NCBI GenBank assembly: GCA_944391535.1
Contig: CALXTY010000005.1
Coordinates: 1-34,255, forward strand
Reading direction: 5' to 3'
DNA from: an uncultured Alphaproteobacteria bacterium
GTDB lineage: Bacteria; Pseudomonadota; Alphaproteobacteria; CAAGCB01; CAG-977
DNA length: 34,255 nucleotides
Shown: piece by piece, positions 8,511-30,500 of the stretch
Position numbering within the stretch: the first letter of the stretch is position 1
How the letters are laid out: each line of letters begins with the position of its first letter
Notes under the pieces: model-generated
Database searches by the model: none
What the model saw: only the letters and a program-made list of their open reading frames with translations
What the model was told of the DNA's origin: nothing
Position numbers and translations under genes: made by a program

Positions 8511-8751
8511 AAGTAAAAGAGATTTTTTTTATCTTCTCCGCAAATATCTACCTCCTTTTTTCTGAAATTCCTTTTAACAAAAAAAACAAACAATTTATTA
8601 ATTGTCATAAGGCCTTCAAAAAACTCAAAAAAAAACAAAACCCTTTTTAAGGGTATAAATTAAAAAACAAAACACAAAAATATTGAAACAAAGATAATAA
8701 CTTTTTATTATTTTCAACAAGTTAATTGTTACATTTTTATGACAAACATAT

Positions 8752-8764
8752 CCCCCCCCCCCCC
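8752..8764. repeat. Homopolymer of 13 C (candidate phase-variation tract)
   Basis: Thirteen consecutive C bases in otherwise AT-rich DNA, 70 bases upstream of the ATG and 39 bases upstream of the TATAAT box of a secreted surface-type protein. Tracts of this length slip readily during replication and are a classic switch for surface genes. Here a length change would alter spacing upstream of the promoter. Confidence 0.75.
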
Positions 8765-8803
8765 ATGTTTTTATGGCATAAATTTTTATTCTCTTAAAAA
8801 GAG

Positions 8804-8809
8804 TATAAT
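8804..8809 (+). promoter_or_regulatory. Putative -10 box of the cysteine-rich gene pair
   Basis: A perfect TATAAT, 25 bases before the start ATG at 8835. The place where a -35 box would lie (about 8781-8786, AATTTT) is poor. Expression may therefore depend on an upstream activator whose spacing is set by the C tract. Confidence 0.45.
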
Positions 8810-8834
8810 GAAATATCTTAAAAGGGGGATGATT

Positions 8835-9284
8835 ATGAATAAAATACCTTTTATTACTTTTTTAACCTTATTGATTTTGTCTATGTTTGGATCAAATGCT
8901 AATGCCGAGATTGCCAACTGCACCGCCTATAACAGTGCCAGAAAATATACTGCCTGCAAAAGCGGGTATTATTTAGGAAATAATTCTTGTTTACCCGAAT
9001 ATGGCAACAGATGCGGCGACGGTTGTTCCTCTTGCGATAATGGTTATTGTAGAGCCTGCGAAATCGGGTGTTGGCTAAACAGTACTTATTGTGAAACACT
9101 GAAACCATGTGTTGATCACTGTTCAGTTTGCACTTCTAATGTATACACTACATTAAGAATATGTCGTTCTTGTGAAGATGGATATACACTAAACGGTAAT
9201 AATTGTATTGAAAAAGCTGTAATACCAATTGCGCCTCTTGTAGCAAAGAAATATGCTCTGCTTGTAAAAGCGGCTATTACTTAA
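8835..9284 (+). CDS. Cysteine-rich secreted protein, N-terminal part of a frameshifted gene
   Basis: Function unknown. The start at 8835 is chosen because AAAGGGGG ends six bases upstream and the translation opens with a signal peptide: MNKIPF, a hydrophobic core, and a likely cleavage after SNANA near residue 22. The mature part is a string of short cysteine motifs (CSSCDNGYCRACEIGCW, CSVCTS, CRSCEDGYTLNGNNC), resembling growth-factor-receptor or furin-type cysteine-rich repeats. After residue 127 the cysteines stop abruptly and a tail without cysteine runs to a stop at 9284. In the -1 frame the cysteine pattern continues without a break to 9478, so the annotated end is an artefact of a one-base loss at the A run 9211-9215. 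The product is probably exported, with disulfides formed in the periplasm or at the surface. Confidence 0.75.
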   Translation: MNKIPFITFLTLLILSMFGSNANAEIANCTAYNSARKYTACKSGYYLGNNSCLPEYGNRCGDGCSSCDNGYCRACEIGCWLNSTYCETLKPCVDHCSVCTSNVYTTLRICRSCEDGYTLNGNNCIEKAVIPIAPLVAKKYALLVKAAIT

Positions 9285-9478
9285 GCGGAGGGGCTTGCCA
9301 TCAAGAAGAAAAATCTTGCGGATACGCTTGCTCCGACTGCAATTCGCCAACAGGCGTCTGTGCCGTATGTGAAAACGGATATACCTCGGTTAACAATAAA
9401 TGTCTGAAAAATTCCGTCTCAGGATCTTGCCCAACCGGTCTGACCAAATCCGCCGACGGATGTTGTTGCATTAAATAG
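9215..9478 (+). pseudogene. Out-of-frame C-terminal half of the cysteine-rich protein
   Basis: Reading from the A run at 9211-9215 in the -1 frame gives SCNTNCASCSKEICSACKSG, then YYLSGGAC, CGYACSDCNSPTGVCAVCENGY and a C-terminal SADGCCCIK before TAG at 9476-9478. Restoring one A (five to six) joins both halves as a single protein of 214 residues with an uninterrupted CxxC rhythm. The C-terminal Cys triplet matches the end of the next gene (CCCY). No start codon with a ribosome-binding site exists for this half on its own. Options are a true recent frameshift, a phase-variable state, or a sequencing or assembly error in the homopolymer. The heptamer here is not a canonical programmed -1 slippery site. 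Confidence 0.8.
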
Positions 9479-9494
9479 GAAAGGAGAACTTACC

Positions 9495-9938
9495 ATGAAA
9501 AAATTACTCTTTATTCTTGCCGTTCTTTCTTTCCTGCCCTTCAAAGCTACGGCAGATAACGTGTTCGACAACAACAACTCTTTTTTAATCGCAAAAGCCG
9601 TCAAACTCGGACGAGGATCGACAAACGGTTTTTATTCTTCCTCTTCGCTGGCCAATAATTCGGTCGCAAAAACAGAATTATTGGAAAACTGTGATAGAAA
9701 CTGCGTCTCTTGCAACACGCAAAACGGTGTCTGCGGACATTGTAAAGCAGGATGTTTCCTCAAAAACAACGTTTGTGTCTTTTGCTCCGGCAATGCGACT
9801 TGTTCCAACGGCATCGCCCTCGTGTGTAATAATAAATATTACAAATCCGGCGATACCTGCATCGGCGTTTGCACAAACGTCAAATGTATCAGCGGTACAA
9901 GCCCGACAATTAAAGATTACAGTTGTTGCTGTTATTGA
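9495..9938 (+). CDS. Small cysteine-rich secreted protein with AKAVKLGRG motif
   Basis: Function unknown; 147 residues. A signal peptide (MKKLLFILAVLSFLPFKATA, cleavage near 20) is followed by a short acidic/Asn stretch and the block LIAKAVKLGRGSTN with AKAVKLGRG at residues 33-41. Residues 66-146 hold 16 cysteines in CxxC-type spacing (CDRNCVSCNTQNGVCGHCKAGC, CVFC, CSNG) and end in CCCY. The same nine-residue block occupies exactly residues 33-41 of the large cysteine-rich protein 10 kb away. GGAGA lies upstream of the ATG, which is 16 bases after the restored stop of the preceding cysteine-rich gene, so the two probably share a transcript and the same poly-C-linked promoter. A strong terminator follows. 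Likely an exported, disulfide-rich surface or periplasmic protein. Confidence 0.8.
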   Translation: MKKLLFILAVLSFLPFKATADNVFDNNNSFLIAKAVKLGRGSTNGFYSSSSLANNSVAKTELLENCDRNCVSCNTQNGVCGHCKAGCFLKNNVCVFCSGNATCSNGIALVCNNKYYKSGDTCIGVCTNVKCISGTSPTIKDYSCCCY

Positions 9939-9952
9939 TCTTAAATAAAAAA

Positions 9953-9983
9953 ACCTCGGAATACGCATTCCGAGGTTTTTCTT
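9953..9983. terminator. Bidirectional intrinsic terminator
   Basis: An 11-base perfect stem AACCTCGGAAT/ATTCCGAGGTT (9953-9963 with 9968-9978) encloses loop ACGC, with T's after it and A's before. It separates the cysteine-rich pair from the convergent pyruvate kinase gene. Confidence 0.93.
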
Positions 9984-10003
9984 AATAAATCTTTTTTTCT
10001 TTT

Positions 10004-11437
10004 CTATTTTTCCGATGAATTAAAAACGGGAAAAATATGCAACAGGTTTGTGTTTCCCGTCACATTAAAGGGCAATCCCGCCGTCATAATGATTTTTTCG
10101 CCGATTTTTGCATCAAACAGCTCTTGACAGAAAACAGACGCCTGACGCGCCACATCGATTAACAATGTTTGCTGTTCACAGACAACGCTTTCAATTCCCC
10201 AAAACAGACTCATTTTTCTGGCAACCGATATGCTGGGCGTCATGCACATGATCGGAATATACGGTCTTTCACGGGAAACCCGTCCCGCTGTCGCGCCGCT
10301 GATCGTATAAGAAACGATTGCCGTCGCATCCGTTAACGTCTCCGCCGTCACACGAGCCGACACCGTAATCGCGCTTTCAGGCGTTTGTTCGGGCGGCAAA
10401 CGCACCGCGTCCAAATATTTTCGATACATATCATGCGATTCCGTTTCCATGATAATTTTATTCATTAAAGTTACGGCTTCAACGGGATAAGAACCGGCGG
10501 CTGTTTCCGCCGACAACATAACTGCATCGGCGGCATCAAAGACGGCCGTTGCCACATCGGACGCTTCGGCTCTGGTCGGTGTCGGATTAGACACCATCGA
10601 TTCCAACATCTGCGTTGCCACAATCACCGGCTTTCCGCCCTTACGACAAGCGCGAATGATCTTTTTTTGCAAGACGGGCACTTTTTCAGGCGGAACTTCG
10701 ACTCCGAGATCTCCGCGAGCGACCATAATGCCGTCCGATAAACGGATAATTTCATCAAGACGTTCCAAAGCGGCCGGTTTTTCTATTTTAGAAACGATCC
10801 ACGCTCTGTCGTTGATTAAAGAACGCGCCAACAAAAGATCTTCGGGACGTTGAACAAAAGACAACCCGATCATATCCGCTCCCATATCCAAAGCGGCTTG
10901 CAAATCCACTTTGTCTTTTTCCGTCAAGGCGTCAATCGGCAACGGAACGCCCGGCACATTAACACCTTTTTTATTGGACAGACGCCCCCCGATCACAACC
11001 GTTGTATCGGCGAAATCCTTGCCGAAATCATCGACACGCAGCCGCACCAGCCCGTCATTGAGTAAAAGATCCATTCCTTTTGTCATTGCCTGAAAAATTT
11101 CAGGATGAGGCAGACACACGCGATTTTCATCACCGGGTTTGGCGGACATATCCAGGCGGAACCGGTCTCCGATATGCAATTCGACCGCCCCTTCTTTAAA
11201 GGTGCCGATACGCAGTTTCGGCCCCTGCATATCACACAAAATCGCCAAAGGACGTCCGATTTCTTTTTCTGCGGCGCGGATATATTCGACATTTTTGCGA
11301 TGATCGTCGTGACTGCCGTGAGAAAAATTCAACCGAAAAACATTTACTCCGGCGACAGCCAGAGCTTTTATTGTTTCCGGCGTATTCGAGGCAGGCCCCA
11401 AAGTTGAAACGATTTTTGTAAAATGAGAACGTTTCAT
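10004..11437 (-). CDS. pyk: Pyruvate kinase
   Basis: Converts phosphoenolpyruvate and ADP to pyruvate and ATP, the last glycolytic step. The 477-residue length is typical. Visible blocks are KIVSTLGPAS and NVFRLNFSHGSHDDH at the N-terminus, CDMQGPKLRIG, the active-site IVSKIEKPAALERLDEII (catalytic Lys), DGIMVARGDLGVEVPPEKVP, the KPVIVATQMLESM motif with TRAEASDVATAVFDAADAVMLSAETAAGSYP, and a C-terminal regulatory-type domain. AAAGGA precedes the ATG. It lies 26 bases downstream of the aldose epimerase gene on the same strand, so a carbohydrate-related transcript is plausible. Confidence 0.98.
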   Translation of the reverse strand: MKRSHFTKIVSTLGPASNTPETIKALAVAGVNVFRLNFSHGSHDDHRKNVEYIRAAEKEIGRPLAILCDMQGPKLRIGTFKEGAVELHIGDRFRLDMSAKPGDENRVCLPHPEIFQAMTKGMDLLLNDGLVRLRVDDFGKDFADTTVVIGGRLSNKKGVNVPGVPLPIDALTEKDKVDLQAALDMGADMIGLSFVQRPEDLLLARSLINDRAWIVSKIEKPAALERLDEIIRLSDGIMVARGDLGVEVPPEKVPVLQKKIIRACRKGGKPVIVATQMLESMVSNPTPTRAEASDVATAVFDAADAVMLSAETAAGSYPVEAVTLMNKIIMETESHDMYRKYLDAVRLPPEQTPESAITVSARVTAETLTDATAIVSYTISGATAGRVSRERPYIPIMCMTPSISVARKMSLFWGIESVVCEQQTLLIDVARQASVFCQELFDAKIGEKIIMTAGLPFNVTGNTNLLHIFPVFNSSEK

Positions 11438-11463
11438 GTTTTAAATCCTTTTATTAGAAAAAC

Positions 11464-12357
11464 TTACAGATCAGAAACGGTTAAAGTCATTGTTTCCGTC
11501 AGACTTTCTTCAGGTTCCAACGTTTTAATGCCCGTACCGGTAATCCCGCGCGACGCCAGATTAAAAGCGTCCGTCGCATTTGTCACCGGTTCGACACAGA
11601 AGAAATTTTCCCCTGCCGGCGACCAAACAACGACATGACCGAAATCGCTATATGCCGTCATATTGATTTTACGTTTACGAGACGGCCATATCAATTCAGC
11701 CTTTCCGTCAAAACCGCCGAAGCAGGTATCAAGTTCCAAATCGGAAATTTTTAATCCTTTGTCAAACTGCCATTCCGGAGGGGTTTTAATCGGTCTTTCC
11801 CGGGGCGGAGCACTTTCATGCGCCCAAACATTTTTTGTTTTAAACGCGACAACCGTATCATCGTCTTTCAGGAAGAACGGATGCCACCCCAAGCCGCACG
11901 GCATCGGAATACCGCCGCGATTCGTCAATGTCAGAGAAACGATCAAGCTGTTATTATTCAATGTAAAAGTTTGTTCCGCTTCATACGCGAACGGGAAACC
12001 GTTTTTTCCGTTATGTTCAAACGCCAAAACAGCTTTATCGGCGCCGGATCGGACAACATTCCACTGTCTTTGCCAACCTTCCCCGTGCAAAGGATCGGGA
12101 ACAAAAGGATGATTTTTGGGTACGCTGCGGCGTATTCCCCAATAGATAAAGTAACCGCCACGAATCCTATTGGAATACGGGACTAACGGGAACATTGAGG
12201 TTTCATCGGCCATTTTCCGTTCAACCGCCCCGTCCAAAGCCGGACGCAACAGATCTTCGTTTTGTTTGCGCCAATACAACACCGACCCGCCCGCAACAGG
12301 ACTGACCGCGGCATGAAAGTCGCCGGATGAAAGAGAAATCATATCTAAATCCGCCAT
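11464..12357 (-). CDS. Aldose 1-epimerase family protein (GalM-like)
   Basis: Probable mutarotase interconverting sugar anomers. The ATG at 12357 gives 297 residues, the usual family length; the longer frame to 12432 begins with TTG and has no ribosome-binding site. Family motifs are NRIRGGYF (63-70), LHGEGWQRQW with His91, the catalytic-site GLGWHPFF with His159, and VEPVTNATDAFN with the presumed general base Glu256. The substrate cannot be told: GalM, hexose-6-phosphate epimerase and YihR-type members share these residues. It lies between the secreted unknown gene and pyk, all on the minus strand. Confidence 0.85.
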   Translation of the reverse strand: MADLDMISLSSGDFHAAVSPVAGGSVLYWRKQNEDLLRPALDGAVERKMADETSMFPLVPYSNRIRGGYFIYWGIRRSVPKNHPFVPDPLHGEGWQRQWNVVRSGADKAVLAFEHNGKNGFPFAYEAEQTFTLNNNSLIVSLTLTNRGGIPMPCGLGWHPFFLKDDDTVVAFKTKNVWAHESAPPRERPIKTPPEWQFDKGLKISDLELDTCFGGFDGKAELIWPSRKRKINMTAYSDFGHVVVWSPAGENFFCVEPVTNATDAFNLASRGITGTGIKTLEPEESLTETMTLTVSDL

Positions 12358-12435
12358 GCTTTTATATCCCTTATTCGTTTTTCCTTTTGTAAACTGTAAC
12401 GCCTTTGCCTGCAAGCAATTTTCTTCAATCAAAGA

Positions 12436-13191
12436 CTATTGTTTAATCGCCTTTATAAAAGCGTTCCGATCCGCATAGGTTTGACCGTCAACCGTCACAG
12501 AGGAAAAAGTAAAGTCATCCAAAGCTTTGTTCGGTAAAACAATTTCTTTCATCTGCGCCTGAGAAACGGCATATTTTTCATCAGGATCGGAAACAGACAA
12601 GGAAGCTTTTTTTACAAAAGCTCCGCCCATTGTAATATCCTGTTGTTTTTTTCTGCTTTCTTCCGGTTGAAGCGAAGCAACAAAAACTTTTTTCAACAGC
12701 ATTTCCTTTGCCGTGGCTTTCAATATCCGTTTTTTCTCGCCCTCCTTTTCTTTTGTTATCAAAGTGACATCCGCCGCAACATCTGTCAAACTCACTTCTG
12801 AGAAAACAACTTGTTTTCCCTTTAAAAAAGAAAAAAACTCGCTCAAGTCGACCTTCACCTTCGGAATAAAAACGCTTCCTTGCACATCGGAACGTGTTAT
12901 TTTCGCCGTAACATCTGTAAAATTCAAATCTCGATTTTGATCGATTTCAAAAAAGCCATACGAAATCCGAACATTTTTTATTTTTTTAAAAAAGGTGGTC
13001 ATCAAAAAATCGAGAACAATGTCCAAAACATTGTCTTTCGTTCTTTCGCTATGAGGAATACGCAATTGAATCGGCGATTCGGGAGCCGGCGCATTTAAAT
13101 CGACAGCAGGTTGCGCTGTTTCTGCATGAACATTTGCGGGAAAACAAAAAAAGAAAAAAAGAAAAAATATTATTTTAAAAAGACTCTTCAT
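12436..13191 (-). CDS. Secreted or periplasmic protein of unknown function
   Basis: No family recognised. The 251-residue product starts with a signal peptide: MKSLFK, a Phe/Leu-rich core, then PANVHA with likely cleavage near residue 24. A short Pro/Ala linker follows, then a region with alternating beta-type and Lys-rich segments (KNVRISYGFFEIDQNRDLNF, VDLSEFFSFLKGKQVVF). The repeated theme of beta strands recalls AsmA/LPS-assembly-like periplasmic proteins, but that is only an impression. AAAGGT lies eight bases before the ATG. It is first in a probable three-gene minus-strand group with the epimerase and pyk. Confidence 0.6.
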   Translation of the reverse strand: MKSLFKIIFFLFFFFCFPANVHAETAQPAVDLNAPAPESPIQLRIPHSERTKDNVLDIVLDFLMTTFFKKIKNVRISYGFFEIDQNRDLNFTDVTAKITRSDVQGSVFIPKVKVDLSEFFSFLKGKQVVFSEVSLTDVAADVTLITKEKEGEKKRILKATAKEMLLKKVFVASLQPEESRKKQQDITMGGAFVKKASLSVSDPDEKYAVSQAQMKEIVLPNKALDDFTFSSVTVDGQTYADRNAFIKAIKQ

Positions 13192-13288
13192 TCGCTTTGA
13201 CCTTTAAAAAACAATCCCGTACACTTCTCTCAAGCATAACATCTTTTTTTATAAAGAAAACAGGCAAAAACACGAGGACTCTCACGGA

Positions 13289-13996
13289 ATGGATTTTAAC
13301 ACACCCCTTTATAAAGCATCTTTAATCAGGCGTTATTCCAAAGTTTTGGCTGACGTTTGTCTTGAAACGGGAGAAAATATAACCGTTTTTTGCTCCAACA
13401 CGACGCAAATGACTTCCCTGTGTGATCCGGAAACAGAAATTTACTTGTCTTATCTGCCAAAAGAGCATCGTCGTCTCCAGTTTACATGGGAAATCGCTGT
13501 CGTCAACGGATCAATGGTCGGCGTCAACATGGGGCGACAAGACGATTTGATTATCGAAGCTGTGGTCAATGCCGTTCTGTACGAATTGGGCGGATATGAA
13601 AAAATAGAAAAGATATCTTCTTATTCAAACGCTTCGTATTTAAACCTGCTTCTCACTCCTTTCGAAAACAGCGGTTACCCATTATGCAAAGTCGCCATCC
13701 TTCCCGTTTATCAAAAAATCGGGACAGATTTAATGTTTCCGGACGGGATTTCGGTCGCAAACCACCATATTCTCAATCAATTAGCCGCTACTCTGCAGGC
13801 CGGTGAAAGAGCCGTTCTCATCCTTTTGGCGCAAAGAATCGATTGCATCGGCATTCGGGCGCAATGGATCGCAGACGCTCAGTATCTGTTGGCGTTAAAA
13901 GATTTATGCGATAAAGGCTTGGAAATTATTTGCTGCGGCTGTAGTGTATCTTTACAAGGAATTTGGGTGACCGCCCGTTTGCCCTTTACTTTTTAA
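13289..13996 (+). CDS. sfsA: SfsA family protein with altered nuclease-type active site
   Basis: SfsA (sugar fermentation stimulation) proteins bind DNA and carry a PD-(D/E)XK nuclease-like core; their exact role is unsettled. This 235-residue copy retains the family layout: LIRRYSKVLADV near residue 12, ITVFCSNTTQM at 31-41, VGVNMGRQDDLIIEAV at 77-92, FPDG near 150, and EIICCGCSV near 212-220. The usual SRxD is SYLN here (Asn119), and the usual YxEVK is YPLCK (130-134), so the acidic residue of the ExK pair is replaced by Leu132. The fold is probably kept but catalysis lost or changed. GAGGA precedes the ATG. It is the first gene of the sfsA-map-radC group typical of Alphaproteobacteria, and the map start lies 14 bases after its stop. 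Confidence 0.8.
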   Translation: MDFNTPLYKASLIRRYSKVLADVCLETGENITVFCSNTTQMTSLCDPETEIYLSYLPKEHRRLQFTWEIAVVNGSMVGVNMGRQDDLIIEAVVNAVLYELGGYEKIEKISSYSNASYLNLLLTPFENSGYPLCKVAILPVYQKIGTDLMFPDGISVANHHILNQLAATLQAGERAVLILLAQRIDCIGIRAQWIADAQYLLALKDLCDKGLEIICCGCSVSLQGIWVTARLPFTF

Positions 13997-14010
13997 TTGC
14001 GAGACCAAAA

Positions 14011-14805
14011 ATGACAAAAGAAGATATCGTTATTCATTCACAACACGATTATGAAGGTATGCGCCGTGCCGGTAAATTGGCCGCAGAAACTTTGGATATG
14101 ATTACCCCTTACGTTCAACCGGGGATAACAACCGCGGAACTGGATACTTTATGTAATGACTTTATTTTGGCAAACGGCGGGATTTCGGCTTGTCTGGGGT
14201 ATCGCGGGTATCCCAAATCCGTCTGCATTTCCTTAAACCATGTGATTTGTCACGGCATTCCGGGATCAAGAAAATTAGTTTCAGGCGATATTTTAAACAT
14301 TGATGTGACCGTTATTGTCGATGGTTGGTTCGGAGACACCAGTCGTATGTATACGGTGGGGAAAATTCCCGTCAAAGCAAAAAGATTGATTGATGTTACT
14401 TTTGAAACCATGTGGCGCGGCATTGAAAAAGTCAAACCGGGAGCAACACTCGGAGATATCGGCCACGCCATGCAATCATATGCCGAATCGCAAAGATGTT
14501 CGGTCGTAAAGGATTTTTGCGGACACGGATTGGGTCGCGTTTTTCACTGTGCGCCGAACGTTTTAAATTTTGGCCGCCCCAAAGAAGGGCTTGTTTTGCA
14601 AGAAGGAATGTTCTTTACCATTGAACCCATGGTCAATTTGGGAGGAAACGATCTCAAGATTTTATCCGACGGTTGGACGGCCGTGACCCGAGATATGTCT
14701 TTATCCGCACAATTTGAACATTCATTGGCCGTGACGGCGACAGGTTATGAAATATTCACTTCTTCGCCAAAAGGGTTGGACAGACCGCCTTATCGGGAAA
14801 TCTGA
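14011..14805 (+). CDS. map: Type I methionine aminopeptidase
   Basis: Removes the initiator Met from nascent proteins in the cytoplasm. The ATG at 14011 gives 264 residues, standard length; a longer frame from 13963 overlaps sfsA. Metal and catalytic residues are all present in order: His81 (NHVICHGIP), Asp98 (NIDVTVIVDGW), Asp109 (FGDTSRMY), His172 (CGHGLGRVFH), Glu205 (TIEPMV) and Glu236 (FEHSLAVT). It lies between sfsA and radC, with radC starting one base after its TGA, so translation is probably coupled. Confidence 0.97.
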   Translation: MTKEDIVIHSQHDYEGMRRAGKLAAETLDMITPYVQPGITTAELDTLCNDFILANGGISACLGYRGYPKSVCISLNHVICHGIPGSRKLVSGDILNIDVTVIVDGWFGDTSRMYTVGKIPVKAKRLIDVTFETMWRGIEKVKPGATLGDIGHAMQSYAESQRCSVVKDFCGHGLGRVFHCAPNVLNFGRPKEGLVLQEGMFFTIEPMVNLGGNDLKILSDGWTAVTRDMSLSAQFEHSLAVTATGYEIFTSSPKGLDRPPYREI

Positions 14806-14806
14806 T

Positions 14807-15547
14807 ATGTCGAAAAATTCAGAAGAACCCCGTCTTTTGGATATCCTTGTTGAACCGCCGGAAGAACAAAGCTCGCCTCATTATTTGGGACATCGGGATC
14901 GTTTGCGTCAAAAAGTTCTGACCTTTGGCATAGATGCCTTACAGGATTATGAATTATTGGAATTTTTATTGACTTTTGCCATTCCCAGAAAAGACGTCAA
15001 ACCATTGGCAAAAGAAATGATCGATTTTTTCGGTTCCTTTGCCGACGTTATTGAAGCTTCTCCCGAAGAACTCAAACATATAAAAGGAATTAAAGACAGC
15101 GCCGCCGCACTTATTTCCGCTGTGCGCGGCAGTGCCGTTCGACTGGCGAAAAATCGAATTTCCGCCGATCCCGTCATCAAAGATTGGAACGCTTTAATCA
15201 ATTACTGCAAAATCGATATGGGATTAAAAAAATCCGAATGTCTGCGAGTTCTTTTTTTGGATTCCCGCACCCGATTGATCAAAGATGAAATCTTGCAAAA
15301 AGGATCCGTCAACCAGACTCCCGTTTATCCCAGAGAAATAGCAAAAAGGGCTTTGGAGTTAGGAGCATCTTCGATCGTTATGGTTCACAACCACCCTGCC
15401 GGAGATTTGCGTCCGTCAAAAAACGACATCGCCATGACCAAAGCCGTTATCAACGCTTTAACCTCTTTGGATATTACACTGATTGACCATTTAATCGTTT
15501 CAAAAACCGGATATGTTTCTTTAAAAGCAACCGGCTACATTAAATGA
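14807..15547 (+). CDS. radC: RadC family JAMM-domain protein
   Basis: A conserved bacterial protein once linked to DNA repair; its real biochemical role is unsettled. The ATG at 14807 follows the map TGA by one base and gives 246 residues. The N-terminal helix-hairpin-helix region (HRDRLRQKVLTFGIDALQDYELLEFLL, then IKGIKDSAA) is followed by the JAMM/MPN+ metalloprotease-like domain with Glu177 (YPREI) and the zinc motif HNHPAGDLRPSKND (His194, His196, Ser204, Asp207). All metal ligands are kept. It is the last gene of the sfsA-map-radC group and ends two bases from a convergent gene, without a visible terminator. Confidence 0.95.
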   Translation: MSKNSEEPRLLDILVEPPEEQSSPHYLGHRDRLRQKVLTFGIDALQDYELLEFLLTFAIPRKDVKPLAKEMIDFFGSFADVIEASPEELKHIKGIKDSAAALISAVRGSAVRLAKNRISADPVIKDWNALINYCKIDMGLKKSECLRVLFLDSRTRLIKDEILQKGSVNQTPVYPREIAKRALELGASSIVMVHNHPAGDLRPSKNDIAMTKAVINALTSLDITLIDHLIVSKTGYVSLKATGYIK

Positions 15548-15549
15548 CA

Positions 15550-16020
15550 TCAGCCGGCAATCAGGATTGAAGCCCCCAATCGGGCGATACCTGCTCCCAA
15601 AACATTCACAACCGTACAGACATTCCACAATTTAATCTGAGCCCCGTCCATAAAAACAAACAAATTTTGACCGACGACAACGGCGACAATCATAAAAGAC
15701 AGCATGATATCCAAAGCTTCTCCGGAATCGCGCCATTTCGACAAGACGGGATGCTTTTTAGAAACAACGGACAACAGACACACCGGATAGTGCAGATTTC
15801 CCCGACAACTGACGGCATGAAGGCTGACGGCGTTCAATAAAAAGTCGATCACCCCCCAAACAATAAAAAGCAACGCCAGCACATCGGCAATCCAACTGTC
15901 ATGATACAAACGGGAAATAACGATACCGCCCAAAACCTTATACCCGACAAAAGGAAAACCGATTGTCAAAATGGACAGGATAAGAAAAACATTTTGTCTG
16001 ATATATTTTAATTTCGGCAT
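15550..16020 (-). CDS. Small multi-pass membrane protein of unknown function
   Basis: No family recognised. About 156 residues from the ATG at 16020 (a TTG three codons earlier is also possible; neither has a clear ribosome-binding site). Hydrophobic segments lie near residues 9-33 (FLILSILTIGFPFVGYKVLG), 43-64 (DVLALLFIVWGVIDFLLNAV), 105-123 (IMLSFMIVAVVVGQNLFVF) and 132-154, suggesting four membrane passes in the inner membrane. It converges on radC with a two-base gap, so the two transcripts must run into each other. Confidence 0.6.
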   Translation of the reverse strand: MPKLKYIRQNVFLILSILTIGFPFVGYKVLGGIVISRLYHDSWIADVLALLFIVWGVIDFLLNAVSLHAVSCRGNLHYPVCLLSVVSKKHPVLSKWRDSGEALDIMLSFMIVAVVVGQNLFVFMDGAQIKLWNVCTVVNVLGAGIARLGASILIAG

Positions 16021-16120
16021 TGTTTTCAAGTGTGGTATAAAAAAAACAGATTAGAAAATATTTTAATCTCCTTTTAAAGTAAAGGGCGTATTTTAAAAAA
16101 AACGTGATCAGAGGAAGCTG

Positions 16121-16864
16121 ATGAATATTTTTAAATTTCTTTTTTCCAAAGTGGATGAGAGCTCGAACGACAAACTGGGAGCTTATCCGGAAAAAGTGCA
16201 CGTCGGCGCCATGCCGGAACGGCGTTATTTAAAAACATCCCGTATTATGACTTTATTATCGGCGGCTTTGTTATGCGGAACGATCATGTTGACGTTTATC
16301 ATTTATTTATTGACCCCTTTATTGCGTTCCGAGCCTTTGTTATTGGCAATAGACAAACGCTTTTACAAACTTGAACCCGTTCAATCTCAAATTGTTTTAT
16401 GGCCGGCAAGTATGTTGATCATGGAAGAACATATTAAACAATATATTTTATTGCGTCATACGATTGTTCCCGACATTGATGAAATGCAAGCCCGTTGGAA
16501 TGATAAAAACAGTTTACTGAAATGGTTTTCCAGTCCGGCGACATTTGGCGAATTCGAAGCGGAAAAAGAAATCAATATGGCTCGCATGGCGGAAGGATTG
16601 ACAACCGAGGTCAACATTCGTTTTATTCACCGGATTGACGGCAGTTTGTGGTTGGCTGAATTTGACACCATAGAACATATGCCCGAAGAAGAACATCCGA
16701 CGATTAAACGTTGGAGAGCCGTATTTGAAGCGGGATTTCGGGCTCACGGATATCCCAATCGGGATGAGCGCATAAAAAATCCTTTGGATTTTTATGTTGA
16801 AAAATATTCTTTATCTTCTCGTGCCGTCACAAAGGAAGATAAAAACGCTAAATTTATAGATTAA
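16121..16864 (+). CDS. VirB8-like type IV secretion protein (solitary)
   Basis: VirB8 proteins are bitopic inner-membrane parts of type IV secretion systems. The 247-residue protein has a short cytoplasmic N-terminus, one membrane segment at 43-67 and a periplasmic domain that ends in NPLDFYVEKYSL (220-231), the hallmark NPxGFxVxxY-type motif of the family with Asp in place of Gly. RYLKTS precedes the membrane segment and DGSLWLAEFDTIE fits the beta-sheet region. AGAGGA precedes the ATG. No other virB gene is in the window; T4SS genes are scattered over the genome in some Alphaproteobacteria such as Rickettsiales, so the rest of the system may lie elsewhere. An alternative is a repurposed orphan. 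Confidence 0.75.
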   Translation: MNIFKFLFSKVDESSNDKLGAYPEKVHVGAMPERRYLKTSRIMTLLSAALLCGTIMLTFIIYLLTPLLRSEPLLLAIDKRFYKLEPVQSQIVLWPASMLIMEEHIKQYILLRHTIVPDIDEMQARWNDKNSLLKWFSSPATFGEFEAEKEINMARMAEGLTTEVNIRFIHRIDGSLWLAEFDTIEHMPEEEHPTIKRWRAVFEAGFRAHGYPNRDERIKNPLDFYVEKYSLSSRAVTKEDKNAKFID

Positions 16865-16869
16865 CTTTT

Positions 16870-17359
16870 TTAAAGTTTTGTCTTCACAAGAGATGTGTGG
16901 AAATTTTTCAAAAGAACAACTGTTTTTTTTTGCTCTTGGCAGAAAAAGCTCAGACTGTGATAAAAAGCAACCGCTTCCTTATTTTCGACAAAGACACCCA
17001 ACCGTATTTCTCGGACTTTTTTTTGCCTGACAGATTTGTTTCAACTTCAACATCAAAGCTCGTCCGATCCTGCGATAATATTGATCAACACAAAGTGTAA
17101 ACAGAACAGATGCGGGGTCTTTTTAAATATGGCTTTTTCTCAAAAGAGAGCGAAAAGAAGCCATTGCTTTTTTGATTTTTTCGCGGTTAAAATAACTTTA
17201 CTTTCATCTGAAATTGATTCGTTAAAAAAAATTTCCTCATGTATATTCAAATCTGAAAAAAAAATGATGAAATCAACAATTATGAAACTTTCTGATTTGA
17301 ACGGACATATCCAGAATGACATCAATTTCAAAAAGATCAGCTTTTTGAACAGAAAATAT
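16870..17359 (-). pseudogene. Decayed GNAT-family N-acetyltransferase
   Basis: On the minus strand, pieces of one GNAT protein appear in order in different frames: FSVQKADLFEIDVILDMSVQ at the N-terminus, then KKSKKQWLLFALF, EKAIFKKTPHLFCLH, the acetyl-CoA-site region TLCVDQYYRRIGRALMLKLK, and REIRLGVFVENKEAVAFYHS with SLSFFCQEQKKTVVLLK. The lesions are an ATA where the start ATG would be expected (17359-17357, behind AAAGGGA), a stop and frame change near 17275, an in-frame TGA at 17142-17140, a frame change near 17100, and another at the run of eight T at 17017-17024. The region therefore explains the 580-base gap between the VirB8-like gene and the tRNA. Confidence 0.8.
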
Positions 17360-17397
17360 TTTTTCCCTTTCAGCTTTTAATTTAACATAAACAGTTC

Positions 17398-17426
17398 TTG
17401 ACGTAAAAGCAACAAACGTTTATAAG
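17398..17426 (+). promoter_or_regulatory. Sigma-70 promoter of tRNA-Val
   Basis: TTGACG (17398-17403) and TATAAG (17421-17426) with a 17-base spacer. Predicted transcription start about 17433, some ten bases before the mature tRNA. Confidence 0.8.
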
Positions 17427-17443
17427 AAAAACGATCCTTTGTC

Positions 17444-17518
17444 GGGCACTTAGCTCAGTGGTAGAGCATTACCTTCACACGGTAGGGGTCACAGGTTCGA
17501 ACCCTGTAGTGCCCACCA
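17444..17518 (+). tRNA. tRNA-Val (anticodon CAC)
   Basis: Full cloverleaf of 75 bases with encoded CCA. The acceptor stem GGGCACT pairs with AGTGCCC, the D arm contains AGCTCAGTGGTAGAGC, the anticodon loop is TTCACAC, and the T arm contains GGTTCGAACC. Anticodon CAC reads GUG (Val). A weak AT-rich hairpin with T runs follows at about 17519-17545. Confidence 0.97.
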
Positions 17519-17563
17519 GTTATCCTTTTAATAACGTTTTTGCGTTTTTCAAAAGATATATAA

Positions 17564-19345
17564 ATGTTTGGGAAAATCACCGCGAAAATCAAGTCCATGA
17601 ATCTGGTGCGTAATTATTCGCGCATTTATCCTTACGTCAAACCGTATAGAGGCAGAGCCTTATTAGCCGTTTTAATCACAATTCCCATAGGATCTTTTGA
17701 CGCTTTGACGGCTTGGATTCTGAAACCGTATATGGATATTGTTCTGGTGGAAAAACAGGTTTCCGCCGCATCTTTTATGCCTTTACTGATTGTTGTTGCC
17801 AGCGCGATTCAAAGTTTTTGCAATTATGGCGCAGTGTATTTGAACACGTGGGTCGGTCAAAAAATCACCTGCGACTTAAAAAGGAAATTGTTTGAAAAAC
17901 TATTGCATCAGGATGCTGCCTATTTTGATCGGTCAACGTCCGGAGCCGTACAATTTCAATTCGGCACTGACGCGGAAATGGCTTGCAGCGGTCTGCTTTC
18001 GAATTTAAAAGTTTTTACAACACGCGTATTTTCATCAATTTCATTAATCGGCGTACTGATTTACAATTCGTGGCAATTAAGTATCGTGGCATTGCTTTTT
18101 ATGTTTGGCGCTTTATTGCCTTTATCCCGCGTACGCAAAAAAATCAAAGATCTGATGGGAAAACAAGTTATGACCGGCGGATTAATTTCAACGCATTATA
18201 TTGAAACATTCGGCGGCAACAGAGTGGTTTCTTCGTATAATTTGTACGATTACCAGATGAACAAATTCAACACCAGTCTGCAGTCTTTATTCAAAATCGC
18301 CATAAAAATGGTAAAAAAAACCGGACTTTTGTCTCCGATGATACACTTTATCATTTCTTTGGGAATAGCCGGCGTTATTTGGTTGGGCAGTTATTTGATC
18401 GTCCATCATCAAATTACCAGCGGGAACTTTGTTTCTTTTATTGCGGCGTTGTTAATGCTTTACACACCGATCAAAGGTATGGGAACCAGCGTGACAAACG
18501 TTCAGATGTCTTTTTTGGCCATGGAACGCGTTTTCGCTTTATTGGATTCAATTCCTTGCGTACGTAACAAAGAAAACGCGGTCAAATTGGAAAAGGTCGG
18601 ACAGTCAATAGAATATAGAAATGTCCATTTTTCTTATTTGCCGAACAAGCCTGTTTTAACGGATGTTTCTTTAAAGATTCCTGTTGGAAAAATGGTCGCT
18701 TTTGTCGGTAATTCGGGAGGAGGAAAAACAACTTTTGTTAATCTCTTGCCTCGTTTTTACGATGTAACGAAAGGGGATATTCTGATCGACGGAATTTCTT
18801 TAAGGGATTACGATTTAAACTCTTTAAGAGATCAGATCGCTGTTGTTTTCCAAGATAATTTTCTGTTTTCTGGAACGATACGGGACAATATTTTATTAGG
18901 TCTGACGGACTATACCGAAGAACAGTTGCACAATGCCGTCAAAAGCGCTTGTCTGGAAGAATTTATATCAGCATTGCCGAAAGGTCTTGATACGGATATC
19001 GGAGAACGGGGATCCTTACTTTCAGGGGGGCAAAAACAACGCATTGCCATCGCCCGCGCTTTTATGAAAAACGCACCGATTGTCATTTTAGACGAAGCAA
19101 CTTCGGCTTTGGACAACAAATCCGAAGCCATCGTTCAACAAGCAATCGACAATTTAATGAAAAACCGTACCGTATTAGTGATAGCTCATCGTCTTTCCAC
19201 GGTTCAAAATGCGGATATGATCGTTGTGATTAATGAAGGCAAAATCGTAGAAAAAGGCTCACATGACGAATTGTTGGCTTTAAACGGTGAATACGCGGCA
19301 TTATACAAAATGCAGTTTCGTAAAAAAGAAAAAACCGAAGAATAG
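17564..19345 (+). CDS. ABC exporter with fused membrane and ATPase domains (MsbA-like)
   Basis: A homodimeric type IV-fold ABC exporter, most like MsbA lipid A flippases; the substrate is inferred only. The 593 residues comprise an N-terminal six-helix membrane domain (about 25-325) and a C-terminal ATPase. The ATPase shows Walker A GNSGGGKTT near 384-392, the Q-loop VVFQDNFLF, signature [14 protein letters not shown], Walker B APIVILDEATSALD and the H-loop IAHRLSTV. The intracellular-loop motif FDRSTSGAVQFQFGTDAE is also present. It starts 45 bases after the tRNA, may share its transcription or have its own promoter in that gap, and no obvious terminator follows before the structured region at 19441. 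Confidence 0.92.
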   Translation: MFGKITAKIKSMNLVRNYSRIYPYVKPYRGRALLAVLITIPIGSFDALTAWILKPYMDIVLVEKQVSAASFMPLLIVVASAIQSFCNYGAVYLNTWVGQKITCDLKRKLFEKLLHQDAAYFDRSTSGAVQFQFGTDAEMACSGLLSNLKVFTTRVFSSISLIGVLIYNSWQLSIVALLFMFGALLPLSRVRKKIKDLMGKQVMTGGLISTHYIETFGGNRVVSSYNLYDYQMNKFNTSLQSLFKIAIKMVKKTGLLSPMIHFIISLGIAGVIWLGSYLIVHHQITSGNFVSFIAALLMLYTPIKGMGTSVTNVQMSFLAMERVFALLDSIPCVRNKENAVKLEKVGQSIEYRNVHFSYLPNKPVLTDVSLKIPVGKMVAFVGNSGGGKTTFVNLLPRFYDVTKGDILIDGISLRDYDLNSLRDQIAVVFQDNFLFSGTIRDNILLGLTDYTEEQLHNAVKSACLEEFISALPKGLDTDIGERGSLLSGGQKQRIAIARAFMKNAPIVILDEATSALDNKSEAIVQQAIDNLMKNRTVLVIAHRLSTVQNADMIVVINEGKIVEKGSHDELLALNGEYAALYKMQFRKKEKTEE

Positions 19346-19408
19346 TTTTCAGTTTTTAGCCCTTTATTCTTATTACCAAGACTGCGACGCAGACGGAGTC
19401 AAAATTTA

Positions 19409-19437
19409 TCGACTGAAATAAAAGTTTATGCTATCAT
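19409..19437 (+). promoter_or_regulatory. Candidate promoter for the structured leader
   Basis: TCGACT (19409-19414) and TATCAT (19432-19437) are spaced by 17 bases, placing a transcript start about 19444, just where dense secondary structure begins. Each box has two mismatches to consensus, so this is only suggestive. Confidence 0.4.
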
Positions 19438-19440
19438 CAG

Positions 19441-19715
19441 TGTATGTTTCGGTATTTGTATCGAAATACAGTACCTTTGCGGGTACGGAGCCGTCAGAAG
19501 CTCTCGTTGCATTACACGGTGACGATATAGCACCGTAAACCTTTGCATACTTGCTATGCAGGGTATATATCCCCGATTTCTTTTAAGGGTCGGGGAGCTT
19601 TGACGTATGTTCAGAAGTTATTCCTGTGCTCTGGAATGCTTTAAAGGTCAAAGGATCATTTTGTAATGCATGATTTCTGAACTCTCCGACCGCTTCTTAG
19701 CGGTCTTGTTTTTTC
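19441..19715 (+). ncRNA. Candidate structured RNA or cis-regulatory leader ending in a terminator
   Basis: About 275 bases without a reading frame but packed with hairpins: TGTA..TTTCG/CGAAATACA (19441-19470), GTACC/GGTAC (19471-19486), GGAGC/GCTCT (19487-19504), ACGGTG/CACCGT (19516-19536), a bulged ten-pair stem ACCTTTGCATA/TATGCAGGGT (19539-19564), TCCCCGA/TCGGGGA (19570-19596), and an outer stem TCAGAA/TTCTGA (19611-19680) enclosing ATTCC/GGAAT and ATCAT/ATGAT. It ends in an intrinsic terminator. The next gene's ribosome-binding site starts five bases beyond the T run, so it could be a riboswitch-like attenuator of that gene or an independent small RNA. It does not match tRNA, tmRNA or RNase P hallmarks. 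A non-coding remnant of an IS200/IS605-type element, which also carry hairpins, is an alternative. Confidence 0.5.
19688..19715 (+). terminator. Intrinsic terminator inside the leader of the large cysteine-rich gene
   Basis: Seven-base stem GACCGCT/AGCGGTC (19688-19694 with 19699-19705), loop TCTT, then TTGTTTTTT. It stands upstream, not downstream, of a gene with an excellent ribosome-binding site (AAGGAGG at 19720-19726), the layout of an attenuator. Confidence 0.8.
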
Positions 19716-19731
19716 TGTTAAGGAGGAAATC

Positions 19732-21243
19732 ATGATAAAATTTATGTTTCTTATATTCTGTTTCTTCGTCCCGAACATATCAAACGCTTTAAGTTTCGGG
19801 GACTTTAGTCAGGAAACAATCACTCTTGCCAAAGCTGTTAAATTAGGACGCGGTAAAAGCAATCTTTATTCCGTGTCAAATTTAAAAACAGAAGGCGCAA
19901 AAGCCAAAATTCTTTGTAAAGAAACCCCTTGTCCTGCGGGACAATATTTCAGCCAAGATTCCTGTTCTTGTTCCCCTTGTCCAAAAGGTCAGGATTGCGG
20001 TTGTTTTGCCACTTATGGTAACAGCCTTTTTGGTAGCCCTGTCGTATCCAACGGATACGGCAGTTGCGGCTGCCCTTCGGGAACAACCCTGACGGCTCAA
20101 CCGGGGAACCGTGCCGATAACACCGCCTGTAAATCCATTCCTTGCGAAGAAGGAGAAGATTGCGGTTGCAAAAACCGTTACGGATCCGATTATGTCGCCG
20201 ACGGTAAAGGCGGTTGTAAATACGACGGTATTTGTCCGCTGGGGCAATATTATTCCGCTTTTGGCTCCGGTTGCATCGCCTGTCCGGCCAATGCGACTTG
20301 CACAGGAAAATCTTGGAACATCATTTTTTCTGAAGCAAATTCTTCTTGCCATTGGAACGATTATACCTGTAACGCTCCGGGATTTGAATGCAAACCGGGT
20401 TACAGAATAACTTCAGGTACTGCTTGTATGACTTGTTCAACGCAATATGGCAAGGGTTGCAAGGCTTGTAATATGACCCAATGCCTGTCTTGCGAAGACG
20501 GCTATGTCTTTGATGCCGGTTCTGGCAAATGTACGGATCATTGTCCCGCGGGGCAATACATCAACGGCAATATGTGTTCAAACTGCCCCAAAGGAGAGGA
20601 TTGCGGGTGTAAAGAAACCTATGCTTCATCAATGTCCGTATCCAACGGCAGCGGATCTTGCGGTTGTCAGGAAAATTTCTATTTCACGCCGGCTCCGGGA
20701 AATAAAGCGGATTATACGGCTTGCAAAGGCGTTCCTTGTGCCGAAGGTGAAGATTGCGGTTGCGTCAATCGTTACGGATCCGATTATGTCGCCGATGGCA
20801 AAGGCGGTTGTAAAGAGCTGATTTGTCCGGCGGGACAAACCATTTACAACGGCAAATGCATTAACTGTCCGTCCGGAGAAGACTGCGGTTGTAATGACAC
20901 CTACGGTTCGCCGTCCGTATCAAACGGCAGCGGATCCTGCGGTTGTCCGGCAGGAATGTCTTTAACGCCGGCTCCCGGTAACAGACTTAACACGACAACC
21001 TGCCAGACAACGCCTTGTGCCAAAGGAGAAGACTGCGGTTGCGTCAATTACAAACTCGGATACGTTGCAAACGGTAAAGGCGGTTGTGAACAAAAAACCT
21101 GTTCCGCCGGTAACTATCTTTCCGGCGCGCAATGTTTGCCTTGTTCCGCAGGATCGGATTGCGGTTGTTTCGCAAAAGAACCCTACCATGGTAAATCATG
21201 GGCTTCAGACGGAACAGGCTCTTGTGATATCGTAATGAAGTAA
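19732..21243 (+). CDS. Large cysteine-rich repeat secreted protein with AKAVKLGRG motif
   Basis: Function unknown; 503 residues. AAGGAGG lies five bases before the ATG. A signal peptide covers about residues 1-19 (NISNA-LSFG), then LAKAVKLGRGKSN with AKAVKLGRG at 33-41. The remainder holds 58 cysteines, nearly 12 percent. Three long repeat units (about 83-163, 285-361, 379-452) follow the plan CPxGEDCGC, TYG, VSNGSGSCGCP, LTPAPGN, PCxxGEDCGC, NRYGSDYVADGKGGC; the first unit is the most diverged and a partial fourth begins near 471. Between units 1 and 2 lies a different segment (168-285) with GF-receptor-like CxxC motifs (CKACNMTQCLSCEDGYVF) like those of the small cysteine-rich genes at 8835-9938. 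Probably an exported, disulfide-stabilised rod displayed at the surface. No membrane anchor or sorting signal is visible at the C-terminus. Confidence 0.8.
   Translation: MIKFMFLIFCFFVPNISNALSFGDFSQETITLAKAVKLGRGKSNLYSVSNLKTEGAKAKILCKETPCPAGQYFSQDSCSCSPCPKGQDCGCFATYGNSLFGSPVVSNGYGSCGCPSGTTLTAQPGNRADNTACKSIPCEEGEDCGCKNRYGSDYVADGKGGCKYDGICPLGQYYSAFGSGCIACPANATCTGKSWNIIFSEANSSCHWNDYTCNAPGFECKPGYRITSGTACMTCSTQYGKGCKACNMTQCLSCEDGYVFDAGSGKCTDHCPAGQYINGNMCSNCPKGEDCGCKETYASSMSVSNGSGSCGCQENFYFTPAPGNKADYTACKGVPCAEGEDCGCVNRYGSDYVADGKGGCKELICPAGQTIYNGKCINCPSGEDCGCNDTYGSPSVSNGSGSCGCPAGMSLTPAPGNRLNTTTCQTTPCAKGEDCGCVNYKLGYVANGKGGCEQKTCSAGNYLSGAQCLPCSAGSDCGCFAKEPYHGKSWASDGTGSCDIVMK
20176..20795 (+). repeat. 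In-frame direct DNA repeats within the large cysteine-rich gene
   Basis: A 26-base block is identical at 20176-20201 and 20770-20795, 594 bases (198 codons) apart, inside longer imperfect repeats. Related blocks around SNGSGSCGC recur near 20638 and 20919. Recombination between copies would delete or duplicate whole units without breaking the frame. Confidence 0.8.
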
Positions 21244-27540: not shown

Positions 27541-30500
27541 TTAGAAAGAATATCTGAACATTGCCGTTAAGGAATGTGACATATAATCAGGTCTCCATTC
27601 CAAATTATATCCGGCCGAAATATCAACATGATCACCCAACAGGTATGCGATAGAAGCTCCTAATTCAACACCCAACGGATCGAAATCGTCCCCGACGACG
27701 GTGTAAGAACTGCCGTTTGGCAGGTTCACGACGGCATCTTCTCCGGAAGCGGAAAAATCATACGTCAACGCGGCGGAAAGCTCGCTGTGCCACAACGAAT
27801 TATTCGTTTTTGCGAAATCACGGCTGAAACGCCCTTCGGCGACAAAGGTCAAGGCTGATGTCGAAACACTCGAGATATCTTGTCCGACTTCGTCTTTATG
27901 GGCGTCACGTCCGGCGGAAACATAACGCAATCCGACGGCAGGCGTCCATGTTTTCAAGTCCTTACCGAACATAATCGACGCTCCGAAAGATGATCCGTCA
28001 TAACTGTCTGACAATGTCAAACCGGATAAGTCTTTCGTTTCATCATAAGTCATGGAAGTCATATTCAAAACAGAACTGACAAACCAATCGGAAGGTTTAT
28101 ACATTCCGTACAAGAAGAAAGAATCGCCCGAAATATCGGTAGAGCGTTGCAAACTGTCTAAAGTTGTCGTTGTTGATGCATACCCGATCCCTAAAGCGAA
28201 AACATCAAACAGTTGCATATCGGCACCGATAGCTATTCCCGTTGTATCACCGGAAAAGCCTTCTGGCTTGCTGACAGACATATAATCCGCCGTGTTATAA
28301 AAAGCTTGTGCCCATAAACCGAAATTTTTCGGTTGGGAATAAGAAGTTCTTCTTTTTGCCCATCTTTTGCGTTCGGCCGTCGTTTCAACCGCTTCCTGAC
28401 TGTCGGGATCGACACGACGACGATAAGCGGGACGCGGTCTGGGCGTCGGCTGATCGTCTTGATCATAGTATCCTGCGCGGCGATAGTAATCTTGAGCACG
28501 CATGAATCTGGAATTATACGGCGAACCGCCCGAACGTCCGTACATTTGTTGTATTTCTCGATACGTTCTTGAAGAACTGCCCATATTTCCCATCAAACCG
28601 TTCAATCTTGAAGAAACCGTATTTGTTACCTTGGAATGCAAAGCGATCGGTTGACGTGTCATGGCTCCGGTCACATCAGGTGAAACAGCCGTCAAAGCCT
28701 TTAAGTAATCGGAATGCCCCCCTTTTTTCTGAGACAAAGCATCTAAATGTTCGGCGACTTCAAACGCTTTTGTGCCGTAATCGAACAATTCTCCGTCCAA
28801 GAAAGCGGTCGCCGTATTGACTTGATTTTGATTTCCCGCTTCTTCCTGTGCAACCTGACCGCCCGTAGAAGTTTGTGTTAAGCGATAGCAGATACCGGTT
28901 CCTGAAGAACACGTTTCTTCTTTTAAATCATAACGATTGTTTTCAAAAACAAAGAACCCTGTTTTGCTTCCTTCCACCAACTGAAAGACGGATCCGCTTT
29001 CCGCCGTTTGCAAACCGTAATCAATCGTTATATCCAACTTGACATTATTGCCGATATTTAAAGTTCCTCCGTTAAAGACCAACTTTCCATATCCGGTCGC
29101 ATTGACATTTCCCATCTCGTCAGTGGCTTCGCGGGAAATGCGCATCATAAAGTTGGAATTATCGTTAAAAGAAAAGTTTCCGACATTAAACGTCAATGTA
29201 TTGACGTCGATATCAAGCTTGCCGCCGCTGGCGATGCTGCCATTACCCAAAGTGGCATTCTTTTCAAAAATCGCGGTTCCGGCGCCGATGTTTAAGGCTC
29301 CCAAGTTCGCCGTATCTTTAAAGTAAACAGCTCCTTTATCCGAAATCGTTATGGATTTAACGTCCGCCACCTGATCAAATTCTGCAAATCCGTCCGTAAT
29401 CCAAACTTCATCAATAAAAGACTGACGATAAAATCTTGCATAAGCGGAATTAAGAATCAAAGACTTAAAATTCGTATCCGACAAAAACGTCAAAGATCCG
29501 TTTCCGGCACTGATCGTTCCTTTATATTCATTCGCTTTGTCAAATGTCGCGCTGGCTTGCCCTTCCAATTGCAGACGAGACGTTGCGGCACCGGTCAACT
29601 TGCCGATTCCCGAAAAATCGGATCCGATAACAACCGTCACGTTATCTTCGATATTAATCGTTCCTTCGACCGAAGAATATGTCAAAGAACCGATCTTGGA
29701 ATCTCCGATAAAGTTCAAGACACCCGTTCCGATCGTTGCGGCGGCCAAATTTTTATTTCCCGTGGAAAACGCGACATTCCCGGATCCGGCGACAAAAGAA
29801 CCTTCTCCGTAAACAATTCCGTTTGTTCCGCTTTGCGTCATGGAATTGACATTCATCGTCATGCCGGAAATCAGATTGACTTCTCCGCCGTTGCTGAACG
29901 CCAAGGTTCCGATGTTAATATTGTTATAGAATTCGGCCGTTCCGCCGTTAGAAACCATTAATGTGCCGAGATTGTCAATCGGAGCTTTAAACGAAGACCC
30001 TTGACCGGTTAAATTTAATGTTCCGTTTCCGGTAATTTTATTCACTCCGTCGGTGACAATCGTCCCGACCGTTAAAATGTTATTATCGGCGATATCAAGC
30101 ACACCGCCCGTATTATCAGCAAATCCTATTGCGCCGATTGCAGCATTTGTTTGAATATAGGCCGTTCCCGAACCGATTTTTATTGTGCCGTCAAAAGCCG
30201 TATTCATTGCAAAGACACCGGACGAGCTTCCATCAAGAAACAACGTTCCGGTTCCTGTTAAAACATCATTTGATTTCAGAGTTATATTTTTATTTACCGT
30301 CAATATTGTGCCGTCATTAATCCCTAAAGTGCCTCCGTTTTCATCAAATATGATTTCAAACAGCTTTGTATTATCGGTGATATTTAATGTTCCGTTGACG
30401 TATGTCGCATTATTAACGCTCCCTCCGGCAAAATTCAGAGTTGTCCCATCCGCGATTGTTACGGAATTTGAGATTGTCGAAGCCGATGTTGTCGTCGACA

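Follow-up and report, generated by a model that had tools for sequence, protein, structure and literature searches.

Two cysteine-rich proteins with predicted signal peptides, encoded on a contig of an uncultured Alphaproteobacteria bacterium (GTDB lineage Bacteria; Pseudomonadota; Alphaproteobacteria; CAAGCB01; CAG-977), share the nine-residue block AKAVKLGRG near their N-termini. The stretch analyzed, referred to as the window, is 34,255 nt long (NCBI GenBank assembly GCA_944391535.1, contig CALXTY010000005.1, positions 1 to 34,255, forward strand). From comparison with related genomes, the block is judged to be one species' form of a real tag with the family-wide core A-x-x-x-K-L-G, restricted to this lineage and carried by a multigene family of predicted exoproteins; its position, its independence from the tail that follows and, among the genomes scanned, its restriction to one order can be read directly from the sequences. 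As to what it does, we consider the chances about even that it is a lineage-specific N-terminal export or sorting signal, in effect an address, of exported disulfide-rich proteins. Genomes and loci are designated below by our own G and L numbers.

The AKAVKLGRG Proteins of the Window

The block occupies residues 33–41 in both open reading frames (ORFs), at 9591–9617 and 19828–19854 on the forward strand. Six of its nine codons differ between the two genes (compared by eye), and every difference is synonymous, as a first-pass annotation of this DNA had noted; the same annotation called the genes unlinked, which is loose wording for two genes that share one 34-kb contig at a distance of 10 kb. 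The block begins about 12–14 residues past the predicted signal-peptide ends in both proteins, since these fall near residue 20 (KATA) and residue 19 (SNA), as judged by rule and without SignalP.

Block protein 1 (9495–9938, forward; 147 aa with 16 Cys) consists of a likely signal peptide up to Ala20 (9495–9554), a linker whose last residues are S-F-L-I (9555–9590), the block, a variable spacer without Cys (residues 42–65; 9618–9689), and a Cys-rich domain (9690–9935) with a terminal CCCY. Block protein 2 (19732–21243, forward; 503 aa with 59 Cys) has the same parts, with a long Cys-rich tail. The tails are as different as had been described. A degenerate block pattern allowing up to three mismatches has exactly two matches in the window, the two blocks themselves; in 100 shuffles of the window it matched 0.02 times on average, and no shuffle reached two. 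Together with the members found genome-wide, this rules out a chance origin of the block.

In an AlphaFold model of block protein 1, the Cys domain is confidently folded (mean pLDDT confidence score of 78–94 per ten-residue block from residue 61 onward), and residues 38–60 have pLDDT below 50. The suggestion that the block forms a small anchoring helix is unsupported, because this part of the model, at low confidence, is without secondary structure. A fold search with the model gave only weak EGF- and furin-like matches, none at E ≤ 0.001; the two window proteins have no Pfam family match at E ≤ 1; and an Rfam scan of the window found tRNA only.

Distribution of the Tag

The further members anticipated by the first-pass annotation, with the block kept and the tails variable, proved to be numerous, both in the genome that contains the window (1.92 Mb in 197 contigs, 88.8% complete) and in its relatives. 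In that genome the block pattern has 11 matches, vs. two for a reversed control; nine are in proteins that combine a signal peptide, the block and a Cys-rich tail, and two are not. Wider patterns and a profile added three genes, for a total of 12 tagged genes, of which three are cut by contig ends. A made-up 28-residue motif query had no match there; it was patterns and profiles that found members.

With one mismatch or none allowed, the pattern matches in eight of 41 genomes, this one included. The match in G005 was rejected as a chance frame of 30 residues, and that in G038 reads T-K-A-V-K-F-G-R. By a profile of 40 N-termini, with the loci then read, members are present in all 12 genomes examined from the family and order (the family-level and order-level sets being the same 12); the lower matches of this profile are signal peptides only. 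Among 385 genomes of the class, seven match the profile at E ≤ 3e-4, five of them from the order. The remaining two (G163 and G353) match by signal peptide only (model positions 1–26 and 1–36) in proteins without the tag, and were discarded. No tagged member was found at this threshold in the 380 class genomes outside the order, where at most 16 candidates per genome were scored, so that a diverged form could be missed.

No known domain covers the N-termini: of the 40 scanned against Pfam and NCBIfam, matches are scattered, with one to three members per family and E of 0.0065 or worse, and the best PDB profile match has E of 0.086. No description of either motif or family turned up in the open-access literature searched, which does not extend to subscription papers and preprints.

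Anatomy of the Tag

The stretches of DNA fetched from these genomes contain 134 ORFs with a signal-peptide-like start and many Cys. The motif K[LIVMF][GS] occurs at residues 18–52 in 80 of these and not in the other 54; as the stretches were mostly picked for the block, this is no genome-wide ratio. The 54 include some chance ORFs and two tagged proteins missed by the rule (L153, L191). One companion protein (see below) with a chance match was dropped from the 80, leaving 79 rows, of which L069 duplicates a G003 row.

Column 1 of the tag is A in 72 of the 79 rows, column 6 is L in 71, column 7 is G in 78, and column 8 is R in 52. The K in column 5 is fixed by the selection rule and columns 6 and 7 partly so; the A in column 1, like the linker Phe described next, was left free by that rule. 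Column entropy is 0.61 at A, 0.66 at L, 0 at K and 0.10 at G (the last two selected), vs. 3.2–3.9 bits in the spacer (78 members). The similar Ser/Asn/Tyr stretch that had been pointed out behind the two window blocks falls in these spacer columns, and is no family feature. The first Cys lies 15–37 residues past G7 in 75 of 78 members and at two residues in the other three.

There are two architectures. In the direct class (29 proteins), the tag stands exactly at the predicted mature N-terminus, with a signal-peptidase-compatible triplet right before it in 29 of 29 by a loose rule. Positive charge right behind a cleaved signal peptide is unusual; the 12 residues from column 2 have a net positive charge in 26 of these 29. 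In the linker class (50 rows in the column count, 49 in the cleavage analysis of 78 members), the tag is preceded by a stretch of mostly 7–15 residues ending in [S/A/P/G/T]-[F/I]-x-[I/L/V/T/M]-A.

The main rival to an export or sorting signal is a second cleavage site. A second protease might cut the linker class after F-x-[I/L/V]-A, giving a common mature N-terminus x-x-x-K-L-G that would then be modified or recognized; we rate this perhaps half as probable as the signal. It would explain why A precedes the rest of the tag in both classes (the 72 of 79 rows above) although signal peptidase needs none there in the linker class, and also the Phe three residues ahead of that A in 48 of 50 rows; 48 of 49 linker proteins also have an earlier signal-peptidase-compatible site. 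However, 25 of the 49 also fit the ordinary signal-peptidase rule at the tag, so that conservation of this A does not settle the matter; F-x-I-A might just as well extend a binding peptide; and the protease is hypothetical, no search for one having been made.

L,D-transpeptidases are known to tether envelope proteins to peptidoglycan in other Gram-negative bacteria, and the fixed distance of the direct-class Lys from the predicted mature N-terminus would suit a covalent link of this kind, through either the tag N-terminus or the Lys. This is the least probable of the alternatives and is largely refuted, barring an unrelated transpeptidase, because the YkuD domain (PF03734) is nearly absent: it was found in one of the 12 order genomes by a search that matches six of 14 control genomes, including Caulobacter.

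Divergence and Species Dialects

That the constraint is at the protein level, as proposed from the synonymous codon differences, is borne out within single genomes: AKAVKLGR is encoded by seven DNA versions in seven G003 genes, and AKAFKLGR by six in seven G004 genes. A DNA-level element in the block is unlikely, since its DNA differs freely at synonymous sites.

Tags also resemble one another within genomes. All eight G004 genes, of both architectures, have A-[KR]-A-F-K-L-G-R-D; column 9 is K in four of six G001 genes; column 2 is never K or R in the eight G008 genes; and all seven G005 genes are of the direct architecture. For dissimilar pairs within the genus, identity in tag columns 2, 3, 4, 8, and 9 is 0.59 within and 0.42 between genomes, an excess that none of 2000 label shuffles reached; the spacer (0.146 vs. 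0.093, none of 2000 shuffles) and the signal peptide (0.224 vs. 0.188, three of 2000) show smaller excesses too, so that the likeness is in part plain relatedness. Some tags in G006 are decayed (AKAYKLFSF, AKSRKIIME), and a short one-Cys protein with the same neighbors in three genomes (L086, L111, L197) is tagged in G002 and G003 and untagged in G004.

Relatedness of this kind raises the possibility that the N-termini are alike only as gene copies, the tag having no present function. Some are indeed near-identical recent copies (L075 and L078; the L082 pair), and the flank controls show relatedness, but signal peptides, linkers and spacers have diverged where A, K, L and G are retained, synonymous sites are scrambled, and the core persists over three genera. 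Residual paralogy is accordingly a very improbable explanation.

Companion Genes

In about half of the cases a tagged gene lies in an operon with a companion. An upstream gene is visible for 73 rows, a few of which are chance ORFs. In 35 of them it is a Cys-rich or CC-ended companion on the same strand, 4–35 bp away; the other 38 lack one. The spacing is 11–19 bp in 30 of the 35, and 29 companions have CC within their last 14 residues. Tagged proteins without a companion are mostly longer (median 335 aa vs. 149 aa).

In the window, block gene 1 is preceded by a predicted Cys-rich secreted companion (8835–9478, forward, likely start 8835) ending 16 bp before it. The companion frame shifts at about 9209–9216, beside a short A run; the listed ORF is 8739–9284, and the remainder, in another frame to 9478, ends GCCCIK. 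The shift may be a sequencing error or a real break. Block gene 2 (19732) has no companion upstream.

The tag could conceivably be a structural segment by which the block protein pairs with its companion. The close spacing in 35 of 73 rows and the CC ends of 29 companions suit such pairing; against it, 38 rows, mostly longer proteins and a few chance ORFs, have no companion, there are tagged proteins with a single Cys (L086, L111), and the spacer is variable. We regard it as improbable, less so than residual paralogy and well behind a second cleavage.

Poly-C Cassettes

A run of 13 C (8752–8764, forward) lies about 70 nt before the likely companion start at 8835, in a conserved cassette with left flank TTGTTACA..ATAT and right flank ATGTTTTTAT. 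Runs of at least seven C occur within 250 nt upstream of 20 of 124 Cys-rich ORFs (three of the 20 without cassette flanks), compared with 0.008 runs per 250 nt overall, those tracts included. Poly-C tracts at the 5′ regions of these ORFs are therefore more frequent than chance, as in contingency loci. The fetched DNA has 37 runs of at least nine C that are distinct by their flanks, an undercount because near-identical copies were merged. Twenty-three of them have a common right flank, AT[AG]T.TTT, and most of these are also alike on the left, with a flank resembling TTGTTACACTTTTGTTACAAATAT. A signal-peptide gene follows 22 of the 23, and the other is cut by the stretch end. The 23 are C9 to C18 in length and come from G000 (6), G001 (4), G003 (7), and G004 (6). 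Three further runs (L030, L121, L257) look alike and fail the flank rule; the other 11 are unrelated. Besides the window, such C9–C18 cassettes precede Cys-rich operons at L004, L007, L011, L012, L015, L020, L029, L030, L032, L033, L036, L039, L067, L092, L095, L096, L113, L173, L177, L200, L212, L219, and L220.

In simple-sequence contingency loci such as those of Neisseria, homopolymeric tracts lie close to the promoters of surface genes. The cassettes, present in the sequences of four species, suggest phase variation of such operons, that of block gene 1 included. Like Neisseria-type loci, they are homopolymers of various lengths, stand ahead of genes whose products are presumed to be at the surface, and occur several times per genome; they differ in having one conserved flanking cassette before paralogous Cys-rich operons, and in being known here from sequence, with lengths compared between loci. 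C10–C12 runs are also found within genes (L132 and L144 in G011; L170 and L171 in G008), in the part coding for the segment from signal peptide to tag; slippage there would cause a frameshift.

A poly-C cassette lies at or close to one end of several contigs (L067, L119, L121, L177, L257, L260). The 386-bp intergenic stretch before block gene 2 (19346–19731) has no Rfam match and no poly-C run.

A Candidate Export Machine

If the tag is an export or sorting signal, Sec export and removal of the signal peptide would leave it on a flexible arm at the N-terminus. There it could be bound by a partner located beyond the inner membrane, which would either export the folded protein or hold it at the surface. 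Poly-C slippage would turn individual operons on or off, and the subset of tails shown would differ from cell to cell.

By analogy, a candidate for the machine is a type IVb pilus (T4bP)-like cluster, with TcpQ, secretin, PilO, T2SSE, and T2SSF identified by Pfam in G003 and VirB2- and VirB4-like genes beside it in G002. The cluster and the VirB2/VirB4-like genes are at L226–L231, L233–L235, and L238–L251, near ATP synthase genes in several genomes. Its gene order resembles tcpB-Q-C-R-D-S-T-E-F. Secretin and PilO are each found in 11 of the 12 order genomes. In G007 (L235), the T2SSF gene of the cluster is followed immediately by a Cys-rich gene whose product has KAYKLS where a direct-class tag would be, and in G006 (L233, L160) a companion/tagged pair with a decayed tag has the same place. 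The recurring neighbors of the block loci themselves are mostly housekeeping-looking and offer no partner candidate. Two tagged genes in G001 with near-identical N-termini, a few kb either side of a prepilin peptidase gene (L082:3384–12456), were given no weight, because the peptidase gene has housekeeping neighbors in every genome read and Cys-rich loci are numerous.

A study of T4bP secretion shows that recognition of TcpF and CofJ is by way of flexible N-terminal segments, which differ in sequence between lineages and do not cross-bind (PMC9565799). The tag is similarly a short N-terminal peptide behind a signal peptide, here predicted to be flexible and independent of the globular part. 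Its sequence likewise differs by lineage, and a TcpQ/secretin/PilO/T2SSE/T2SSF cluster is present in 11 of the 12 genomes, as judged by secretin and PilO. The tag is also predicted to sit near the N-terminus, in a flexible part of a protein exported by Sec, as a T4bP signal should. It differs in being A-x-x-x-K-L-G rather than an aromatic-centered peptide, and the system differs in that one genome can encode many tagged proteins (17 rows in G003), no minor pilin was found, and the cluster is joined to VirB2/VirB4-like genes.

A number of points count against the tag as an export or sorting signal read by this machine. The binding partner, the surface location and the secretion of the tagged proteins are all putative, and the likeness of tags within a genome is partly relatedness. 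T4bP signals require a critical aromatic residue, to which the minor pilin trimer binds. Phe precedes the tag in 48 of 50 rows of the linker class, but in the 29 direct proteins predicted cleavage leaves nothing ahead of the tag; because of this the tag is not counted among T4bP signals, although the way of working fits. G010 has tagged genes and neither secretin nor PilO. Tagged genes adjoin the cluster in only two genomes and in none of the other eight with a visible flank (the G000 contig ends before it). Prepilin peptidase is found in 11 of the 12 genomes, with no match in G002. At E ≤ 0.001, TcpQ occurs in 43 of the 385 genomes of the class (41 pass the cut-off), and none of the 38 outside the order has a tag match, so the tag is no necessary part of such a cluster. 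No pilin gene was found in the fetched stretches by simple prepilin patterns (one and three matches, not pilin-like by eye). The protein at the tcpB-like position, at 700–830 aa, is not pilin-like and was rejected as a minor pilin; by eye, an alignment of ten shows a single hydrophobic stretch at the N-terminus, a middle part that varies and a C-terminal part that is conserved. Finally, the poly-C cassette is absent before block gene 2 and from the fetched stretches of the other eight genomes.

Tails and Other Observations

Tagged proteins range from 75 to 1820 residues. Short ones often end CCC, and two (L086, L111) have a single Cys. Four of eight long ones scanned match ephrin-receptor-like, VSP-like or other eukaryote-type Cys repeats, with up to 130.1 bits for PF07699 (ephrin-receptor-like; L183) and 32.4 bits for PF03302 (Giardia VSP-like; L082; cut-off 31.4); four match nothing. 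L093 and L104 have other, Cys-poorer repeats. Here such repeats would be cargo behind a bacterial tag; the two window proteins match no Pfam family.

More speculatively, and with slightly less confidence than for a second cleavage site, the lineage might display a phase-variable Cys-rich repertoire, some of it with eukaryote-like repeats and many members with their own poly-C switch, all addressed by A-x-x-x-K-L-G to a single pilus-like machine; untagged companions would be carried out as passengers with the tagged partners. If so, the tag would be a new export signal, specific to its lineage and located at or close to the mature N-terminus of proteins that are not lipoproteins. Tag and cassette together would be a sequence handle by which to recognize a large part of the variable exoproteins of an uncultured order. 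It would also be a bacterial counterpart to the variable cysteine-rich coats of protists, and a testable case of the number of cargoes served by one pilus-like machine.

Elsewhere in the window, a large gene that looks autotransporter-like by eye (27541–34254, minus strand) runs past the contig end, its N-terminus not covered. Near several tagged loci there are multi-copy proteins without an evident signal peptide (L108:5015–8520, L116:1703–2983, L102:4155–5291, L090:614–1621), some of which carry HExxH-like motifs (HEARH, HECRH).

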